This document shows positions 36,421-45,471 of a stretch of DNA of 64,000 nt, one piece after another (the first letter of the stretch is position 1; each line of letters starts with the position of its first letter). The DNA comes from Haloarcula pelagica (GTDB taxonomy: Archaea; Halobacteriota; Halobacteria; Halobacteriales; Haloarculaceae), in contig NZ_CP126161.1 in assembly GCF_030127105.1 (NCBI RefSeq), forward strand, positions 2,852,001-2,916,000, read 5' to 3'. Below the pieces are notes generated by a model, which did no database searches, was not told the DNA's origin, and was given only the letters and a program-made list of their open reading frames with translations. The position numbers and the translations under genes were made by a program.

Positions 36421-39400
36421 ATGACAACAACAAACGAAAAGCTCCGCAGTCTATTCCTTGCGGCGCTGATGGTATTCTCCGTATTCGGAGGGACCGTCGC
36501 GCTCTCAGGGAACGCTGCTGCGCTGTCAGCGGGCAACGCTGCTGCTGGTAATACAGCGGCAGGTGCCGACACGACGCTGACAACGTCAGCAACGATAGAT
36601 TCGAGCGATCCGACCAGTATAGACGGCCTCCGTCTGGCCTTCGACCAGGCGAGCGCCGATGATGGTCTTCCGACCACGAGTAGCGCCTATTCCGTCAACA
36701 TCTACGACGAGAATGGCGACCTTACCAACCAGGGTAGTCTGAACGATGGAAACGGCATTTCCTACAGTGAAGGCTCTGCCATCCTGACGTTCAGCACTCA
36801 GGACGTTCAGACTGACTACGAGGTCGAGGTAGTCGTTGACGGATACACGAACCCGTCGACTGACGGCTCCTACTCGGGCGAGTACCAGCTGAACCCTGAC
36901 TCCAACGGACCGACCACCGGCATCTCGCTGCAGGTCGGTGACGGCACCGGCGTCGAAGTCACGGACCTGAGCGCGCCCGCAGTCGCGGCGCACGATCAGG
37001 ACATCATCGTGACCGCGAACGTCACCAACACTGGTGGCTCCACGGAAGACTTCGATGTCTCGTACTCGGCAACCGGCCCGTCCACGAGTGGCGCCGCTGG
37101 GACATCCACCCAGACGGTGAACCTCGGCGCGGGCGAGACCACGGAAGTCAGCTTCACGGTCAACACGACCGACCTGCCTGACTCCGACGCCAGCGCGGTC
37201 GTGGACTACACCCACGGCATCACGGCGACCGGTCAGAACACTGGCGACTCTGACAGTCAGACCGCCAGCCTCTCGGTCGGTACGGACTCTTCTGGTACGA
37301 TCAACATCGACGTGATCGACCAGCAGAGTAACACCGTTACCGGGACCAACGTCTCACTGTACCGCGCAGGCGACTGGGGCGGAAGCGTCGACAACACCGC
37401 CGCAGACCCGATCCGAGTGCTCCAGACCGACAACAACGGCTTCGTTAACTTCGAAAACCTTGCTGTCGGGGCTGGTCCGACCCAGTCTGACAGCGTCTCC
37501 TACGTCGCTGTGGCTGGCTACCAGGACGATGACTTCGACTCGAAGAGTACGCAGCTTGACCTCTTCGAAAACACGCAGCGGACCGACTCCGCGACGCTGC
37601 GTCTCGAACGGGTCATCGACCCGGCCAGCATCACGGTCGACACCATCAAAGGTGAAGCGACCGCCAACGGCCAGGATCAGGTTCAGTACGAGGTCACCGT
37701 CCGCGGTGATGTCAACAATGATCCGTTCCAGGGTGCAGAAGTGACGATCAGCGCCACCGGTCCGAACACCGCGGCGCTGACCTACGAGGACGGCGACCAG
37801 ACTGAGATCACGGACGAGAACGGTACCGTCCGGTTCAACGTCTCGTCGACCGACGAACAGGAAGTCACCTTCACCTTCGAGGAGACCTCGGAGAGCCTCA
37901 CGACCACCGCAACCGGTCTCTTCACCCCGCAGTCGGGTGAGGGTAACCTGTACGGTTCGGTCGTCAGCCAGGCCTCCACCAACGGAATCGAGAACGGCTC
38001 GGTCCACGTTGTCTCGGAGACTGACTACACCACCAACGAGGTCACCACCACGATCGACCTCGACAGCATCGATCAGGGCGACGCTGACGACAACACGGTC
38101 TTCCTGCGTCTGAACGACTCCGAAGGCAGCGTCATCTCGCCGGACGAGTACGACATCCGTGTCGCAGAAGGGCCTGTCGAACCAGGTGCCGAGCTCCCGC
38201 CGGGCGTCAACCCCGGTACGGGCGTCACTCTCATCGACGAGCTGAACTCCACTGATGCTGCAGTCGGTGGCGGCTACGCGCTCGTCGACACCGACGGTGA
38301 CGGCGAAATCGTCTTCAGCCACACGCGTCTCGAAGCCCGTGACTACTACGCACAGGTCTCGTTCGACGCGAACAACGCCAGCGACTACGACAACGATGTC
38401 TCGCGCGTTCTCCAGCCGGACGAGAACCCCGAGGCGTTCGTCAACGTCACTGGCACCACGAGCGGCGTCGTCAGCAGCGACGACCTCGGTACCGGCGATG
38501 CTGCCGTGTTCGAGCCGTCCGCCAACCTGACGGTTGAGCAGGCGGTCGCGGACTCGCGCGCATCCGGTGCCAACCTCGCCGACGCACCTGGCTTCACCAA
38601 CTCCTTCGGCGTCCCGACGGAAGGGACCAACCAGGACGGTGACTACGTGCTCAGCGAGATCCCGACCAACTACCAGGCAGGCGTCCAGTACGTCGCGATC
38701 GCTCAGGCGAGCGGCTACTCGACGGACTTCCAGGATGTCTACCTGCAGGAAGACGGGCAGCTGACCTTCACCGAGACCCAGGGGTCGAACGACTTCTTCC
38801 TCGAGCCGGTGCTGGTCCAGCCCGACGCAGTCAACATCACGCAGATCGGTCTGCGCGACAACGCGTCCGCGACTGCAACGGACGAGTTCAGCAACAAGTC
38901 TGACGAGTTCGTCCAGCAGGTCCCGCGTAACGGACGCACTGTCGACGCGTTCCTGATCGAAACCTCCGCCGAGGGCACGCCCGCGAACGCCACGGTCGAG
39001 GTCTCGATCGACGATACCTCGGTGAAGGGCAACTTCACCGGTGTCGAAAGCGGCACCAACGTCTCGGTCGACGAGGCGAACAACAACATCACGATCACGA
39101 CCGGTCCGGACGGCGCGGCGACCGTGCTGTACCAGGCCGACTCGAACACGCAGTCCGTCGTCACGAACAAGACGGCTGTCCTCTCGAACGACGAGTCCGC
39201 GACTGACAACTCCACCGTGGAGTTCGTCGGTCAGCTGACCGTCCAAGAGGCAGAGGTCTCCGGTATCGTTACCAACGAGAACAACGATCCGGTCCCGGCC
39301 AACGTCTACCTCAACGAGATCAACCTGGAAGGGGAGATCTTCACGCTGACGCCGGTCGAGTTCGGACAGACGGCCTCCGGTGAGGACGTTATCCGGACCT

Positions 39401-41178
39401 TCCGTATCGACCGTCTCAACAACTCCGGCGGCGTCATCGCCTCCGACACCTTCAACGCCTCGTACGACTCCACGCCCGGTGACTACGACTTCTCCGGGTT
39501 CACTGGCGTCTCGCTCGGCGCGAACGTCGGCAACCTGACGCTCGCCACCCTGTCGACCGACGGTGTGCAGGAGTCGTCGTCCTACACGCTCCCGCGCATC
39601 CCGTCCGTCGACCAGGACCCGAACGTCGACTCGCGAGTCGTCGTCCGTGGCTCCTCTGACACGTCCATCGCGGACGCCGTCAGTGACGGCACCGGCTTCA
39701 GCTCGCTCCAGAACGGTACGTCCGTGAGCACGCTCACCGAGCCGCAGCGGACCTCGACGGCCAACGTCGAGATCACCGGCGCGGCCGGCGGACCGTTCCA
39801 GGTCAACAACGTCGTCGTCACCCCGAACTCCACGAGCGCGGGGACGGCCGTCGACGTTTCGGCTGACGTTACCAACAGTGGTGCTGTCACCGACTCGACC
39901 GACGTGACCCTGAGTGTCGAAGACACCTCGGGCACGCAGGTCAGCGGCTCCAGCACCACCCAGACGATCGCTGCCGGTCAGACCGAATCGGTCAACTTCA
40001 CGGTTGACACGACCGGTCTCTCCGACGGCAACTACACGGTCTTCGTGGACACGCCGACCTCGGCTGCACCCGCGACGGCCAACCTCGAGATCGAGGCAGG
40101 AACGCCTTCGAACCCGCCGAACTACACGGTCAACAGCGTCACCGCGACGCCGTCGACCATCAACCAGTCCGAGAACCTCACCGTGGACACCAACGTGACG
40201 AACGTCGGCGGCCCCGGCGCGGGCTCGGTCTCGGTTGAGATCAACGGGACGAACGTGTCGACTGGCACGGGCCAGCTCGACATCATCTTCCTGCTGGACG
40301 ACTCCTCGAGCATGGATCCGTTCATCCAGGATCTGACGGACGCAACGCAGGACTTCGCTGCCCGCGTTGACCAGTCCGCAGACGCCCAGTACGCTGTCGT
40401 CACGTACGGCGACGGCTCGGTCCAGATCCAGCAGACCCTCAGCGACAACGTCACCCAGACGCAGAACACCCTCGGGAACGTCTGTCCCGGTGGCTTCTGT
40501 TCCGGTGGCACTGAGGTCAACTACGACGCGATCAACGAGTCCCTGACCGGTGGTCAGCTGGGCCTGCGTGCGAACGCACGTCCGGTCATCATCGACCTCA
40601 CCGACGAAGGGAACAACAACCAGACCAACAGCGATGGCGACATCACCACGCCGACCCAGAGTGAGATTTCCACGCTGCTGGAAGACGAGAACGCGAAGTA
40701 CATCGCAGTCACTGAACCCGATGTCAAAGGCGGGTTCCAGTACCCGGCCGCCGACGACAAGCGCGTGCTTGTCAACGAGACGGCTGACGCACAGTACTTC
40801 AACATCAACTCGCAGAACCTCAGCGACCAGTTCGCCAACGAGATCGCCGGTGACGTTGCGAACGCGAGCGGCGGCCAGTCGATCACGCTGAACACCAGCG
40901 AGAGCGGCACGGTCACGTTCGACTTCGACAGCTCCACCACCGGTACGCTCGCGCCCGGCGACTACACGGTCACTGCGAGCACCGACAACAGTAGCGCATC
41001 GACGAACCTGACTGTCCAGGCCGGCAGCAGCCCGCCGTCCTCGATCGTTGACCAGTACGATACGAACGGGACGCCCGGCATCCAGACCGGCGAAGTCCTC
41101 GACGCTATCGTCGACTTCAACAACGGACAGATCACCCAGGGCGACATCCTGGACATCATCGTCGCGTTCAACAGCTAA
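36421..41178 (+). CDS. Giant secreted surface protein: CARDB-like and von Willebrand A domains, dockerin-like C-terminus
   Basis: 1585 residues. Residues 1-36 are an S-layer-type Sec signal (LRSLFLAALMVFSVFGGTVA). Ig-like/CARDB-like domains follow: about 178-290, many Asn-Thr-rich repeats in the middle, and about 1118-1225 ('GTAVDVSADVTNSGAVTDS'). A vWA domain (about 1285-1483) has a MIDAS DxSxS at D1293, S1295, S1297 (LLDDSSSM), then GGTEVNYDAI and VIIDLTD. It interrupts a third CARDB-like unit that begins before it and resumes with GTLAPGDYTVTAS. Residues 1541-1585 are dockerin-like: YDTNGTPGIQTGEVLDAIV followed by ITQGDILDIIVAFN. Many N-glycosylation sequons. There is no membrane anchor or PGF-CTERM. 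The S-layer glycoprotein gene follows after 16 bp, so this is probably its envelope partner. Confidence 0.85.
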   Translation: MTTTNEKLRSLFLAALMVFSVFGGTVALSGNAAALSAGNAAAGNTAAGADTTLTTSATIDSSDPTSIDGLRLAFDQASADDGLPTTSSAYSVNIYDENGDLTNQGSLNDGNGISYSEGSAILTFSTQDVQTDYEVEVVVDGYTNPSTDGSYSGEYQLNPDSNGPTTGISLQVGDGTGVEVTDLSAPAVAAHDQDIIVTANVTNTGGSTEDFDVSYSATGPSTSGAAGTSTQTVNLGAGETTEVSFTVNTTDLPDSDASAVVDYTHGITATGQNTGDSDSQTASLSVGTDSSGTINIDVIDQQSNTVTGTNVSLYRAGDWGGSVDNTAADPIRVLQTDNNGFVNFENLAVGAGPTQSDSVSYVAVAGYQDDDFDSKSTQLDLFENTQRTDSATLRLERVIDPASITVDTIKGEATANGQDQVQYEVTVRGDVNNDPFQGAEVTISATGPNTAALTYEDGDQTEITDENGTVRFNVSSTDEQEVTFTFEETSESLTTTATGLFTPQSGEGNLYGSVVSQASTNGIENGSVHVVSETDYTTNEVTTTIDLDSIDQGDADDNTVFLRLNDSEGSVISPDEYDIRVAEGPVEPGAELPPGVNPGTGVTLIDELNSTDAAVGGGYALVDTDGDGEIVFSHTRLEARDYYAQVSFDANNASDYDNDVSRVLQPDENPEAFVNVTGTTSGVVSSDDLGTGDAAVFEPSANLTVEQAVADSRASGANLADAPGFTNSFGVPTEGTNQDGDYVLSEIPTNYQAGVQYVAIAQASGYSTDFQDVYLQEDGQLTFTETQGSNDFFLEPVLVQPDAVNITQIGLRDNASATATDEFSNKSDEFVQQVPRNGRTVDAFLIETSAEGTPANATVEVSIDDTSVKGNFTGVESGTNVSVDEANNNITITTGPDGAATVLYQADSNTQSVVTNKTAVLSNDESATDNSTVEFVGQLTVQEAEVSGIVTNENNDPVPANVYLNEINLEGEIFTLTPVEFGQTASGEDVIRTFRIDRLNNSGGVIASDTFNASYDSTPGDYDFSGFTGVSLGANVGNLTLATLSTDGVQESSSYTLPRIPSVDQDPNVDSRVVVRGSSDTSIADAVSDGTGFSSLQNGTSVSTLTEPQRTSTANVEITGAAGGPFQVNNVVVTPNSTSAGTAVDVSADVTNSGAVTDSTDVTLSVEDTSGTQVSGSSTTQTIAAGQTESVNFTVDTTGLSDGNYTVFVDTPTSAAPATANLEIEAGTPSNPPNYTVNSVTATPSTINQSENLTVDTNVTNVGGPGAGSVSVEINGTNVSTGTGQLDIIFLLDDSSSMDPFIQDLTDATQDFAARVDQSADAQYAVVTYGDGSVQIQQTLSDNVTQTQNTLGNVCPGGFCSGGTEVNYDAINESLTGGQLGLRANARPVIIDLTDEGNNNQTNSDGDITTPTQSEISTLLEDENAKYIAVTEPDVKGGFQYPAADDKRVLVNETADAQYFNINSQNLSDQFANEIAGDVANASGGQSITLNTSESGTVTFDFDSSTTGTLAPGDYTVTASTDNSSASTNLTVQAGSSPPSSIVDQYDTNGTPGIQTGEVLDAIVDFNNGQITQGDILDIIVAFNS

Positions 41179-41194
41179 CGAGGTAAATCAACAC

Positions 41195-44100
41195 ATGACA
41201 AACACAATGAAGACGGTACAGGCGGTCGCGATGACAGCCCTGATGGTGCTGTCAGTCGTTGCGATCTCCGCGCCCGCAGCTGCGGCTCCCGCGGCAGATC
41301 TCTCCGCCTCTACCAACGCTGGTTCCCTCCAGCCTGGCGATACGTTCGAAGTGACGTACACACTCGAAAACACCGGGGCTGACCCCGGCCTTGCAGGCAG
41401 TCTCGAGTTCGACACCCCGTCGGAAGTCAGCGTGGTTTCCGCGAGCGGTGACGGACAGCTGAACTCGGGGACGGTCCTGTACGGAGTCACGGGCAACACG
41501 ATCGCGTCCGGTGACTCGGTCCAGACGACCGTCACCTTCGAAGTTGACAGTGGTGCCGCCGACGGTGACTACGATGTCACCGCCGACGGTACGCTGCAGG
41601 ACTCGTCGACTTCCTCGACCGACTCGACGACCTCGACGGTCACCGTCTCGTCGAGCACCAGCCCGCCGCCGAGCGACTCCCAGCCCGGCGCACCCGACCT
41701 GCGTAAGGCGACTCACTACGAGGACGCGCAGGAAGGCGTCATCCTCGAGCTGGCGTTCACCGAGGACGTCACCGAGGACAACCCGGAAGTCACCGTCCAC
41801 CTCAGCAACGACACGGACGTTTCCGTCCCTGACTCGTGGATCCAGGCACCCGACGGCGGGCGCGTGGTCGTGGACACGCAGGGCAACGTCTACAACCGCA
41901 TCGAGGAAGTCACTGTCTCCGGCTACGAGGACAGTGACGGTAACAGCCTCGGTGAAGTCACGATCGACGCGAAGTTCGCACCGGAAACCGTCAACACGCT
42001 CACGAACGACAACGTTGAGGCCTTCCAGGGCTCCAACGTCACGTTCGAGGGTAACGTCGGCGACGAGTTCGACGTTAACACGCGAACCGACGACGACCTG
42101 GACTTCTCGACCACGCGTGGTACGGGAGCGAACAGCCAGGTCTACGTCTGGAACACCGACAACCGCGATGTGGGCGACTACCGCATCGAGAACGACGCAG
42201 CGGGTACCAACAGCTCGCTGGCGCTCGAAGACCTCGGCCTCACGGTCGAGGCTGACGAGGACACGTTCGAGGACGACGAGAACGTGACCGCGACGATCGA
42301 ATCCAACGACATCAACCGCGAGGTCGATGTCGACCTGCTCGACTCCTCTGGAGACGAGGAGGAAGAGACGACCGTGACCGTTGACTCCGATGGTGAGGCC
42401 GAGGTCGACTTCGGTGAAGTCGACACCGGTAACTACACGATCGAAGCAACGGACGTTAACACGCAGGTCACCGCAGAGAGCGACGAGTTCGAAGTCGTCG
42501 AAGCCGGTGACATGGAAGCCAGCTTCGCGGACGACGGTGTCTTCGTCGAGGAGAGTGGTGACGTGGCGAACGTCACGATCAACCTCGAGAACACCGACAC
42601 CGCGCTGCTGAACATCGGTGACGAGTCCGACGACAACTACAACCTGCTGCTGAACCTGACGGACGACAGCGACAACGGTCAGGTCACTGTCCAGTTCAAC
42701 AGCTACTCCGCGGGCGCGGTCCCGATGGACCAGATCGAACCCGCCGTCGTCACCGTCGCTGACGATGACGACGAACTCGAAGTGATCGAACGCAACGGTA
42801 ACTTCGTCGACACCAACCGTGAGGTCGGGGAGAACCTCCTCGACGCCACGGACTACGAGATGAACGTTACCGGTGAGAACGACAACGATGTCACGGCCGA
42901 CAACGAGCAGGATGTCGGGACGATCTCCCTCCAGGAGCGCTCGACCGAGGATCTGCAGACGTGGGTCGCTCCGGAAGAGGAGTTCAGTGACATCGAGGAT
43001 CTCGACAACGACGAGGTCGGCGATGTCTACCAGCTGATCGAGGACGGCTCGCTGACCCAGTCGGACACCCTCGCCACGCAGGACACGCTGGTCCTGCAGG
43101 TTCAGGCCTCCGGTCTCGAAGGCCTGTTCAAGTACCACTCGGAAGTTGACGGCCTCTCGGAGGCCGCTGCGCTGCAGGCCCACACGGGTAACTTCCAGAA
43201 CACCGACACCGGCCACATCTCGGCCGTGCTCGAAGACGAGAACCCAGGCGCGAACGTTGAGGACGACGACATCGGCGTCGACGACCTCAACAGCGGCGAC
43301 CTGCACGTTCTCGTCGACGAGGAGAACAACTCGCACTTCGTCGCAATCGACAGCCAGGGCCTCGTCGCCATGGATGTCGAGGACGACGACGAGTACACCG
43401 CCAACTTCAGTGTTGCCAACGAGGACTACACTGAGCTCAACGACGACGACGAGGTTCAGGACGTTAACATGACGTTCAACGTCCAGGACCGCGACGACGA
43501 AACCAGCCTGAACAACGACAACGATGTCGTTGTCCGCGCCGCTGAGGGCCAGAACATCAGCGGTACCACCGTCGCCGCCCCCGGCACCGAACTCACCGTT
43601 CGGATCCGGAGCGACGACTCCAGCGCGCCGTTCCTGAAGCAGCCGACCGCTGTCGTCCAGCCGGACGGTTCCTTCACGGCCACGGCTGACTTCAGCGAGG
43701 AGCAGCCCGGCGCGAACTTCACCGCACAGGTCCGCCTGAGCGGTCAGAACCTGGGCGAAGAGATTGACGGACAGGTCTCCGCCGCACCGGTGGCCTCCGT
43801 CAGTATCAGCGACCAGGAATCCGACGGCGAGACCGTCACCGTTGACAGCGCGTCGCTGTCCGACGGTGGCTTTGTCGTCATCCACGATGGCACGCTCCTC
43901 GACGGCGAAGTCGAGGATAGCGTCATCGGGAACTCCGACTACCTCGAGTCCGGTAGCCACGAGGACATCGAGATCACCGTGGACGCCCAGGAAGAGGACT
44001 TCACGGCGATCGCGATGCCGCACCTCGACACGAACGGCAACGAGGAGTACGACTTCCCGAGTGCTGACGGTCCCTACACCGAGAACGGCTCGGCAGTGAC

Positions 44101-44332
44101 CGACGCAGCGAACGTGACGGTCGTCACCTCGACGCCGACGCCGACGCCGACGCCGACGGACGAGCCGACGGCAACGCCGACGCCGACGCCGACCGAGGAG
44201 CCGACCACGGACATGAGCACGCCGACCGACGAACCGACCACCACGTCCCAGGACGGTCCCGGCTTCACCGCTGTGATCGCTCTGGTCGCGCTGGTCGCCG
44301 CGGCACTGCTCGCAGTCCGCCGTAACAACTAA
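41195..44332 (+). CDS. S-layer-type surface glycoprotein with cohesin-like N-domain and PGF-CTERM
   Basis: 1045 residues from ATG 41195; an SD-like GAGGT sits 10 nt before it and the spacer to the previous gene is 16 bp, so it is read from the same mRNA. Signal peptide about 1-33. Residues about 35-150 look like a cohesin: 'LQPGDTFEVTYTLENTGA', then LAGSLEFDTPSEVSVVSA, then SGDSVQTTVTFEV. Very acidic S-layer-type domains follow. A late domain (SISDQESDGETVTVDSASLS, VVIHDGTLLDGEV, AMPHLDTNGNEEYDF) is common in haloarchaeal surface glycoproteins. Then a Thr/Pro stretch suited to O-glycosylation, and a PGF-CTERM tail (DGPGFTAVIALVALVAAALL, AVRRNN), the archaeosortase A signal. A likely main S-layer protein. 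Confidence 0.88.
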   Translation: MTNTMKTVQAVAMTALMVLSVVAISAPAAAAPAADLSASTNAGSLQPGDTFEVTYTLENTGADPGLAGSLEFDTPSEVSVVSASGDGQLNSGTVLYGVTGNTIASGDSVQTTVTFEVDSGAADGDYDVTADGTLQDSSTSSTDSTTSTVTVSSSTSPPPSDSQPGAPDLRKATHYEDAQEGVILELAFTEDVTEDNPEVTVHLSNDTDVSVPDSWIQAPDGGRVVVDTQGNVYNRIEEVTVSGYEDSDGNSLGEVTIDAKFAPETVNTLTNDNVEAFQGSNVTFEGNVGDEFDVNTRTDDDLDFSTTRGTGANSQVYVWNTDNRDVGDYRIENDAAGTNSSLALEDLGLTVEADEDTFEDDENVTATIESNDINREVDVDLLDSSGDEEEETTVTVDSDGEAEVDFGEVDTGNYTIEATDVNTQVTAESDEFEVVEAGDMEASFADDGVFVEESGDVANVTINLENTDTALLNIGDESDDNYNLLLNLTDDSDNGQVTVQFNSYSAGAVPMDQIEPAVVTVADDDDELEVIERNGNFVDTNREVGENLLDATDYEMNVTGENDNDVTADNEQDVGTISLQERSTEDLQTWVAPEEEFSDIEDLDNDEVGDVYQLIEDGSLTQSDTLATQDTLVLQVQASGLEGLFKYHSEVDGLSEAAALQAHTGNFQNTDTGHISAVLEDENPGANVEDDDIGVDDLNSGDLHVLVDEENNSHFVAIDSQGLVAMDVEDDDEYTANFSVANEDYTELNDDDEVQDVNMTFNVQDRDDETSLNNDNDVVVRAAEGQNISGTTVAAPGTELTVRIRSDDSSAPFLKQPTAVVQPDGSFTATADFSEEQPGANFTAQVRLSGQNLGEEIDGQVSAAPVASVSISDQESDGETVTVDSASLSDGGFVVIHDGTLLDGEVEDSVIGNSDYLESGSHEDIEITVDAQEEDFTAIAMPHLDTNGNEEYDFPSADGPYTENGSAVTDAANVTVVTSTPTPTPTPTDEPTATPTPTPTEEPTTDMSTPTDEPTTTSQDGPGFTAVIALVALVAAALLAVRRNN
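44128..44200 (+). repeat. ACGCCG-rich repeat coding the Thr-Pro stalk
   Basis: Runs of ACGCCG encode alternating Thr-Pro (TPTPTPTPTDEP, TPTPTPTEEP) just before the PGF-CTERM tail. Such Thr-rich stalks are O-glycosylated in haloarchaeal S-layer proteins and span from the membrane to the lattice. Confidence 0.8.
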
Positions 44333-44371
44333 CGGGATCACCTCCCGTCTCTGAACATCGCCTTTTCTTTC
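44332..44371 (+). terminator. Hairpin/U-rich terminator after the S-layer gene
   Basis: ACGGGA (44332-44337) pairs with TCCCGT (44343-44348), followed by the T-rich CCTTTTCTTT at 44361-44370. It begins at the stop codon and separates the surface operon from artA. Confidence 0.55.
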
Positions 44372-44440
44372 GCGCGCTGATCCGGTAGCGACAGCTCCGT
44401 TCGGTATCGTCTTGGAGCCACACGCGGGCGTAACGACAAA

Positions 44441-44450
44441 GCATATAGGC
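44441..44450 (+). promoter_or_regulatory. TATA box of artA
   Basis: AGCATATAGG lies about 26 bp before ATG 44473, implying a leaderless artA transcript independent of the S-layer mRNA. Confidence 0.55.
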
Positions 44451-44472
44451 CGGATTTGCCAACATACGCGCA

Positions 44473-45471
44473 ATGATACCGACAGTCCTGCAGTCACGCG
44501 TCACGCTCGGTGGACTGTCGTTCGATCCGCTCGTGCTCTCGGAGCCGCTGATGTGGCTCGTCCTCGCGGCGTTTCTCGGGAGTGCCGTCCTCCACCGAAC
44601 CGACGAACGATGGGCACGGATCACGGCGGTCACCGGCTGGGGACTGTTCGGCGCGTTCTGGTTCGTGTTGATCCCGCATTTCGTCCTGACACAGAAGAGC
44701 TTCGTCGAGGGGATCGGCAGCGTCGCCGCGGTCCCGCTCTCGCTGTACACGGGGTATCTGCTGTGGAACGGACGTGATTCGCTGTTCGTACTGACACGGG
44801 CGATCGGGGCGATGGGGATCGTCTACGTTCCGTTCCTCACGATCGAGCCGCTACGGCAGTTCCTCGTCGAGGTAGTGACCGACCAGACCGCCTTTCTGAT
44901 GTCACTGCTGGGTGTCGATCCCGTCGTCGTCGACGGCTTCTCGCACAACGGGATCGAGATCGTCACCAAGCAGTACCCCTACGAGAGCACGTTCTGGTTC
45001 GACCACGAGGAGGGACCGATCACGTACAACATCCTCCTCGCCTGTACCGGGATCGGGAGCATCTCGATCTTCGCCGGCGCCATCCTGGCGGTGTCGGCAC
45101 CCTGGCGGCGAAAACTCCGGGCGCTGGCGGCGACGGCGGCGGTCATCTACGTCCTGAACCTGTTCCGGAACGTGTTCATCGGCCTCTCCTTTGGCCTCCA
45201 GCGGATGCAGGTCTTCGAGGGCGCCATCATGTCACTCTTTGGCGTCTCGGACCCGCGGCTGGTGTCGTACTACCTCGCGGATCGGATCCTCGCACAGGTC
45301 GGGTCCGTCGTCGTCCTCGTGGGGATCACCTGGATCCTCGTGCGTGAACTCCCGGAGATGACCGTTCTCGTCGAGGATCTGCTGTTCATGCTGACCGGGA
45401 CCGAGTACGATCTAGAAGCGGCGTTTCACGCGACCGACGGGGACGCGAACGCGACCCCCGGTGACGACTAG
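44473..45471 (+). CDS. artA: Archaeosortase A
   Basis: 332 residues with about eight helices. Catalytic Cys191 is in LLACTGIGS, with Arg232 in NLFRNVFIGL and Arg271 in YYLADRIL. The spacings (41 and 39 residues) equal those of the experimentally defined C173, R214 and R253 of Haloferax ArtA as I remember them. ArtA removes the C-terminal helix of PGF-CTERM proteins and links the new end to an archaetidyl lipid. The preceding gene encodes a PGF-CTERM protein, so enzyme and substrate are neighbours. A ~50-residue acidic tail follows the last helix. Its stop overlaps that of convergent dphB. Confidence 0.95.
   Translation: MIPTVLQSRVTLGGLSFDPLVLSEPLMWLVLAAFLGSAVLHRTDERWARITAVTGWGLFGAFWFVLIPHFVLTQKSFVEGIGSVAAVPLSLYTGYLLWNGRDSLFVLTRAIGAMGIVYVPFLTIEPLRQFLVEVVTDQTAFLMSLLGVDPVVVDGFSHNGIEIVTKQYPYESTFWFDHEEGPITYNILLACTGIGSISIFAGAILAVSAPWRRKLRALAATAAVIYVLNLFRNVFIGLSFGLQRMQVFEGAIMSLFGVSDPRLVSYYLADRILAQVGSVVVLVGITWILVRELPEMTVLVEDLLFMLTGTEYDLEAAFHATDGDANATPGDD

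Follow-up and report, generated by a model that had tools for sequence, protein, structure and literature searches.

Secreted haloarchaeal proteins are known to be held by ArtA/PGF-CTERM or lipobox anchors. The locus described here lies at positions 36,421-45,471 of a 64,000-nucleotide stretch of Haloarcula pelagica DNA (contig NZ_CP126161.1, positions 2,852,001 to 2,916,000; hereafter the window), part of chromosome C1 of a genome (G000) with four contigs. It encodes a large secreted protein with a dockerin-like tail (gene 1), an S-layer-type glycoprotein with an additional N-terminal domain (gene 2) and archaeosortase A (artA). An earlier note on this DNA had described the tail as dockerin-like and proposed the N-terminal domain, with its cohesin features, as the partner. 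We consider it probable that genes 1 and 2 form a lock-and-key display unit, in which the S-layer would present the gene 1 protein by docking of its tail on the N-terminal domain of gene 2, called the receptor domain throughout.

The type I cohesin-dockerin pairs of cellulosomes (Clostridium thermocellum, PDB 1ohz) share with the haloarchaeal modules a small C-terminal two-helix tail with an EF-type loop, recognition residues (10, 11, 17 and 18) in both halves, lineage-specific pairing, scaffoldins with tandem receptor domains and a membrane- or wall-anchored receptor. Compared with the cellulosomal dockerin, the haloarchaeal tail is about 15-20 residues shorter and has a single calcium-type loop in place of two; unlike the cohesin, the receptor is NEW3/DUF11-like by sequence and sits on the S-layer subunit itself. 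The cargo, cellulases in the cellulosome, here consists of adhesin-like proteins, proteases, a nucleotidase and a multicopper oxidase. According to PMC9012536, anaerobic methanotrophic (ANME) archaea and Archaeoglobus have surface proteins with dockerin and cohesin modules as well as multi-cohesin scaffoldin-like proteins, and ANME-2c proteins combine S-layer and dockerin domains. In those systems it is the S-layer-domain protein that bears the dockerin; in the haloarchaeal case the S-layer glycoprotein bears the receptor and the cargo bears the tail. The haloarchaeal modules also differ in scoring under the Pfam Cohesin and Dockerin_1 cut-offs. Dockerin-type domains have been described in haloarchaea before, in glycoside hydrolases among others, with no cohesin in that study (PMC10963439). 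The S-layer glycoproteins of the HVO_2072 type (csg; TIGR04216, PMC8640222) are contained whole, PGF-CTERM included, in homologues on our contig C3, in genomes G233, G098 and G222, and in others. These differ from HVO_2072-type proteins by a receptor domain inserted between the signal peptide and the canonical mature N-terminus, and by a tail-protein gene that precedes or clusters with the receptor-bearing gene. Two adjacent envelope-protein genes, one with a membrane-anchored product, are also found in two-component archaeal S-layers such as that of Sulfolobus (SlaA/SlaB); unlike these, attachment is proposed here to go through a small swappable tail-receptor pair, and a lattice role of the tail protein is not indicated. 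A search of the open-access literature gave no account of such tails docking on S-layer proteins of haloarchaea, and the claim of novelty is provisional, subscription papers lying mostly outside the search.

Recurrence of the tail-receptor pair in Halobacteria

The start of gene 2 follows the stop of gene 1 by 16 bases, and the tail reaches to the last residue of the gene 1 protein. The same arrangement, a tail gene directly followed by a receptor-bearing S-layer gene, was found in genomes G233, G214, G074, G140, G005, G203, G368, G042, G053, G079 and G222 and spans several families of Halobacteria (G, C and L numbers stand for genomes, contigs and loci). Receptor types A, B and C are related to one another (probability in profile-profile comparison: A-B 81%, B-C 94%). 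With the own genome excluded, type A was present in 27 and the tail in 17 of 291 genomes, 14 of which shared both where 1.6 were expected (p=5e-14). Type B was found in 20 of 292 genomes, 17 of them with tails against 3.4 expected (p=5e-12), and this association persisted when all profile-seed genomes were dropped (12/15, p=6e-10). Because the two modules stand side by side in many genomes, their co-presence is more than chance.

In the csg proteins of C3, G233, G098 and G222, TIGR04216 starts at residue 187-205 and at model position 2-4, with scores of 748-1016 bits against a cut-off of 400, indicating that the receptor was added to an S-layer glycoprotein that is complete without it. All seven csg proteins with a type A, B or C receptor stand beside a tail gene (C3, G233 C2, G098, G222, G080, G249 and G091), whereas the 40 others have neither such a receptor nor an upstream tail (Fisher p=1.6e-8). 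The csg list was made without regard to tails, and these 7 and 40 proteins represent all but a few of the listed loci. Further csg copies within G233 and G222 are devoid of both receptor and tail. Very variable N-terminal extra domains were also observed in many csg proteins (L256 and L261-L277, the csg loci of G035, G135, G233, G290, G173, G281 and others); their sequence types are not A, B or C, and no tail gene lies directly upstream. The idea that every extra domain at the N-terminus signals docking was therefore rejected, in view of the many csg proteins that combine such other domains with the absence of a tail.

In the window genome and in G368 the tail-receptor pair occupies the artA locus, where their genus-mates G083, G055, G185 and G169 instead have two S-layer genes in tandem that lack both modules; G083 has one tail elsewhere in its genome. 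In a search of genome contigs for related loci, none was found with gene 1 as query and only two, in Haloarchaeobius sp. FL176 and Natrinema ejinorense, with the receptor alignment. A viral origin was dropped, viral contigs and phages having given no match. Plasmid NZ_CP098515.1 of Haloplanus sp. GDY1 has a cassette in which an STT3-type oligosaccharyltransferase gene is grouped with the genes of a tail protein and of a receptor-bearing csg S-layer protein (L246, 94916-107320); a tail-bearing NEW3 protein is encoded at 122900.

The system is wider than the earlier note had it, as the window genome encodes scaffoldin-like proteins and further proteins with tails at other places. Contig C3 holds a second pair: directly behind the gene of an 848-aa tail protein lies that of a 961-aa S-layer protein, which has an N-domain of the same kind and, from residue 187, a complete canonical csg sequence (TIGR04216 976 bits against the cut-off of 400). 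About 2.7 Mb from the window pair, at C1:119-127 kb, three tail proteins are encoded: a receptor-receptor-tail protein (326 aa), one with two carboxypeptidase-regulatory domains, a receptor and a tail (413 aa), and a PPC-domain protein with a tail (435 aa). Further tails are carried by PQQ/CARDB, 5'-nucleotidase-type, subtilisin-type (a label seen in the sequence) and DUF7282 proteins. Two open frames of 201 and 353 aa (G000:C3:2873 and G000:C3:217689) have identical dockerin-like tails, which are the genome's best Dockerin_1 match at 18 bits, below the cut-off.

Scaffoldin-like proteins with one or two receptors and a tail were detected in at least seven genomes (G000, G010, G080, G091, G235, G249 and G275). 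In genus g31, a PGF-CTERM protein carries 4-5 tandem type B receptor domains (Table 1) and directly adjoins a 591-aa tail protein in G112, G189 and G267; that of G112, the sole one scanned, is a multicopper oxidase. The g31 protein looks like an ArtA-anchored scaffoldin with enzyme cargo. In G188, G031, G301 and G050 a tail gene is followed by a receptor-first protein without PGF-CTERM; these include PKD/CARDB-like proteins, a membrane protein with a C-terminal zinc-ribbon-like motif and a PQQ-like propeller. Small haloarchaeal proteins, mostly of 247-340 aa, contain Pfam cohesins well above the cut-off and could be alternative tail receptors.

Covariation of receptor and tail and symmetry of the tail repeats

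Distances between receptors and distances between tails were compared by partial Mantel tests, given a housekeeping GTPase and the S-layer body. They were correlated across 18 loci (r=0.33, p=0.0016) and across the 12 strictly adjacent ones (r=0.38, p=0.003). The housekeeping GTPase was no predictor of tails (r=-0.03), and among the strictly adjacent operons the S-layer body was none either (r=0.05, p=0.36). Three congeneric pairs combine a conserved S-layer body with strongly different receptors and tails: distances for body, receptor and tail were 0.16, 0.87 and 0.80 in G042/G074, 0.17, 0.63 and 0.78 in window/G368, and 0.33, 0.61 and 0.94 in G233/G080. Unlinked tails share their genome's dialect in G080, G213 and G268, and the receptor type of scaffoldin-like proteins agrees with that of the S-layer protein in their genome.

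The two repeats of the tail, whose register was set by hand, also covary with each other. Repeat 1 was compared with repeat 2 in 24 tails, giving a BLOSUM score of 42.0 within the same tail and 11.4 with repeat 2 of other tails. This similarity was reached in none of 100,000 permutations, and the own repeat 2 ranked first for repeat 1 in 22 tails. Covariation was seen at loop positions 10, 11, 13, 14, 17, 18, 20 and 21 and was absent at positions 8, 9, 16, 19 and 22. Position 16 is mainly A in repeat 1 and V/L/I in repeat 2, and this systematic difference rules out a recent duplication as the source of the symmetry. The recognition positions of dockerins are 10, 11, 17, 18 and 22 (PMC6780208), four of which (10, 11, 17 and 18) are among the covarying positions of the tail. 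As 8 of the 15 positions covary, the overlap is not rare by itself, and we regard it as suggestive. In dockerins, recognition residues duplicated in both repeats, a property that the tail has as well, support dual-mode binding (PMC8063739).

Anatomy of the locus and of its two modules

The three neighbouring genes were all found where the earlier note had placed them (Table 1), and its description of gene 1 as free of a membrane anchor holds: scanning for membrane-spanning segments revealed none apart from the signal peptide. The von Willebrand A (VWA) match of this protein is only marginally above its cut-off. Gene 2 has the PGF-CTERM signal and the third gene is an archaeosortase A, both as claimed, and these family memberships support ArtA anchoring of the receptor protein. 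The best overall match of gene 2 is the ArtA-dependent S-layer glycoprotein NF041335 (331.8 bits), whose equivalog cut-off of 1100 bits is not reached.

The tail family is present in 64 of 391 genomes. The AlphaFold2 (AF2) model of the tail, a confident one (pLDDT 88), has an EF-type loop between a short helix and two longer, paired helices. A profile of 27 tails matches EF-hand proteins at repeat 1 (E 2e-8), where loop positions 1, 3, 5 and 12 are D, N or E in most tails. In repeat 2 (ITQGDILD) the helix is retained and the calcium-ligand half of the loop is missing; the tail therefore has one EF-type site, not two. Of the dockerin-like pair of loops proposed earlier, the first thus stands as an EF-type loop, but the second does not. 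Dockerin_1 matched two of the 27 family members (best E 0.021), and in profile-profile comparison of the tails with two classical dockerins the match was limited to the 15-residue EF loop.

Scanned alone, the receptor domain passed the cut-off of NEW3/NPCBM_assoc (PF10633; 34.8 against 24.4 bits). Its near-match to Pfam Cohesin (E=1.3e-4, profile positions 10-133 of 139) is the top Cohesin match within its own genome. Among eight type A receptors, NEW3 matched all eight, DUF11 and CARDB six each and Cohesin three. When the family profile was compared with PDB sequences, the best match was a weak one to a Ruminococcus flavefaciens cohesin (5n5p, E=0.047), the alignment covering nearly the entire domain. 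The AF2 model, built from a three-row alignment with two of five models confident, is a nine-stranded sandwich (pLDDT 90.3, pTM 0.82). Structure comparison placed cohesin 2vo8 (Z 12.0, 118 residues, 2.9 A) about level with integrin Ig-like domains (Z 13.6, 123 residues, 2.3 A), and cohesins 2jh2 and 5lxv likewise ranked near the top. The receptor domain may be called cohesin-like by role.

Table 1. Features of the Haloarcula pelagica locus (window positions) and related proteins of other genomes.
Feature	Position	Strand	Evidence or genomes
Gene 1, 1585-aa secreted multi-domain protein, dockerin-like tail at end	36421..41178	+	
Gene 1 haloarchaeal surface-glycoprotein signal, residues 7-34	36439..36522	+	TIGR04207, 40.2 bits
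Gene 1 Big_1 Ig-like domain, residues 404-495	37630..37905	+	PF02369, 38.4 bits
Gene 1 von Willebrand A domain, residues 1288-1395	40282..40605	+	PF13519, 27.3 bits, cut-off 27.0
Gene 1 dockerin-like tail, residues 1541-1585 (SSIVDQYDTNGTPGIQTGEVLDAIVDFNNGQITQGDILDIIVAFNS)	41041..41175	+	tail family, AF2 model, repeat symmetry
EF-hand-type loop of tail repeat 1 (DTNGTPGIQTGE), residues 1547-1558	41059..41094	+	tail profile matches EF-hand proteins
Tail repeat 2 (ITQGDILDIIVAFNS)	41131..41175	+	helix kept, first half of loop gone
Gene 2, 1045-aa S-layer-type glycoprotein, putative N-terminal receptor domain	41195..44332	+	
Gene 2 putative receptor (cohesin-like / NEW3-like) domain, residues 35-150	41297..41644	+	PF10633 34.8 bits, PF00963 22.6 bits, AF2
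Gene 2 S-layer body DUF7827, residues 434-559	42494..42871	+	PF25162, 102.8 bits
Gene 2 BGTF surface domain, residues 776-861	43520..43777	+	NF045517, 91.5 bits
Gene 2 DUF7282, residues 867-975	43793..44119	+	PF23951, 125.3 bits
Gene 2 PGF-CTERM sorting signal, residues 1017-1044	44243..44326	+	TIGR04126, 47.1 bits, cut-off 24.5
artA, archaeosortase A	44473..45471	+	TIGR04125, 339.7 bits, cut-off 75
Tandem-receptor PGF-CTERM proteins	L233:8491-12908, L234:8145-12544, L235:6421-10446, L232:17115-19640		G112, G189, G267, G244
Receptor-first proteins without PGF-CTERM	L100:5060-9844, L101:9584-11083, L156:4814-6310, L163:6674-8047		G188, G031, G301, G050
Small Pfam-cohesin proteins	G214:C30, G203:C1:1110246, G260:C8, G005:C1:14411, G213:C1:923691, G091:C1:3045635		

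Proposed docking and alternative explanations

We read the locus as a probable divergent cohesin-dockerin-like S-layer display system with the S-layer subunit as receptor. The analysis establishes the gene anatomy, the conserved pairing, the covariation and the symmetry of the tail; binding of the pair, calcium dependence, ArtA processing and a surface location are inferred. The PGF-CTERM of gene 2 would be processed, and the protein lipid-anchored, by the neighbouring ArtA, as family membership suggests; the extra beta-sandwich between its signal peptide and S-layer body would be the receptor. The gene 1 protein, predicted to be secreted and having no anchor of its own, would dock by its compact 45-residue tail, with two helices related by a pseudo-twofold, into the receptor domain, probably in a calcium-dependent manner and in either of two orientations. 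The S-layer lattice would then act as an anchoring scaffoldin that presents gene 1, with its VWA and Ig-like domains, on the cell surface, which would also receive the other tail proteins of the genome and the small receptor-receptor-tail proteins. Lineages would swap lock and key as a matched pair and keep the S-layer body unchanged. Comparative evidence makes the proposed docking well supported: the specific relation between tail and N-domain put forward in the earlier note rests on co-occurrence, operon adjacency, matched types and within-genome dialects, but the family names cohesin and dockerin, taken strictly, are not earned.

Several observations weigh against this docking system. Tail and receptor domain lie within ~250 bp, and co-transfer by linkage, the main caveat, could be the source of part of the covariation. 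A prediction stated beforehand, that genomes with 'DWR' tails (G213 and G268) would have a type C receptor, failed strictly, both carrying type-B-like domains. G079 is mismatched, with a type B receptor and a type A-like tail, and the unlinked tails of the window genome fall into several sub-dialects. When all tail-profile seed genomes were dropped, the association of type A with tails was weak (5/15, p=0.03), and ten type A genomes are without tails; generic NEW3 domains are probably among these. The identification of the N-domain as a cohesin is not supported in its strict form, as its Pfam Cohesin (PF00963) score of 22.6 bits is under the 24.1 cut-off and its fold is not cohesin-specific, integrin Ig-like domains scoring equal or higher. 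The claim that the tail is a dockerin of PF00404 was not borne out: the window tail gave no match at E<=1, and the two F-hand calcium-binding repeats that define dockerins are not both present, repeat 2 lacking the first half of its loop. Finally, Foldseek and VIA found no significant structural match for the 49-residue tail model, which is too small to decide; the non-significant matches were mainly EF-hand proteins and unrelated helix pairs.

The linkage caveat can be extended to a scenario in which tail and domain do not bind at all and are both passengers of a block-exchanged mobile S-layer locus, their types being matched by proximity. The modules are adjacent and S-layer loci do turn over, as seen from the tandem S-layer genes of the genus-mates, but in G080, G213 and G268 tails encoded at unlinked positions, on separate contigs too, agree with the dialect of their genome, unlinked scaffoldin-like proteins have the receptor type of the S-layer protein, and the adjacent S-layer body does not follow the tail as the receptor does. 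Nor does linkage explain the symmetry of the repeats within the tail, and we judge this scenario to be quite unlikely. The tail might also be a sorting or oligomerisation signal, acting through two-helix dimerisation or a secretion/assembly factor, with the N-domain an ordinary Ig-like domain of the lattice. Extra N-terminal Ig-like domains of haloarchaeal S-layer proteins have indeed been reported without an assigned function (von Kuegelgen et al., PMC8640222), extra N-terminal domains are common in csg proteins without tails, and domains of the NEW3/CARDB type are very common. We nevertheless find this explanation very unlikely: the extra domains of tail-less csg proteins belong to different sequence types, receptors A, B and C occur in csg solely beside tails, receptor type varies with tail dialect, and receptor and tail are found together on small proteins that have nothing else.

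A third alternative concerns ancestry and is compatible with docking of tail and receptor. The modules may be a very divergent branch of the classical cohesin-dockerin family, kin by descent to the cellulosomal and archaeal (Archaeoglobus, ANME) ones, which we regard as a serious possibility that falls short of probable. It is consistent with the R. flavefaciens cohesin as best PDB sequence match over nearly the whole domain, with a Pfam Cohesin match across almost the full profile, with the cohesins among the top structural matches, and with the EF-hand loop of repeat 1 and the duplicated recognition positions. These scores are below cut-offs, however, and NEW3, DUF11, CARDB and integrin domains match equally well or better; the likeness of the tail to dockerins is confined to the EF loop, the second calcium site is absent, and the tail has 45 residues where dockerins have about 60-70. 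An origin separate from the cellulosomal system is put forward tentatively and with some doubt: a single-calcium EF-hand tail, recognised by an Ig domain of the NEW3/DUF11 type that was added to the S-layer subunit, would have made the lattice an anchoring scaffoldin, with lock and key diversifying faster than the rest of the wall and being exchanged pairwise.

If the docking reading is true, the S-layer receptor would supply a partner for haloarchaeal dockerin-type domains and explain the extra N-terminal Ig-like domain of some S-layer proteins. The pair would be a natural module for protein display on halophilic cells and a case of fast lock-and-key co-diversification on a slowly changing wall. 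Tail and receptor make up a defined, testable pair that looks like a general way to decorate archaeal cell walls.

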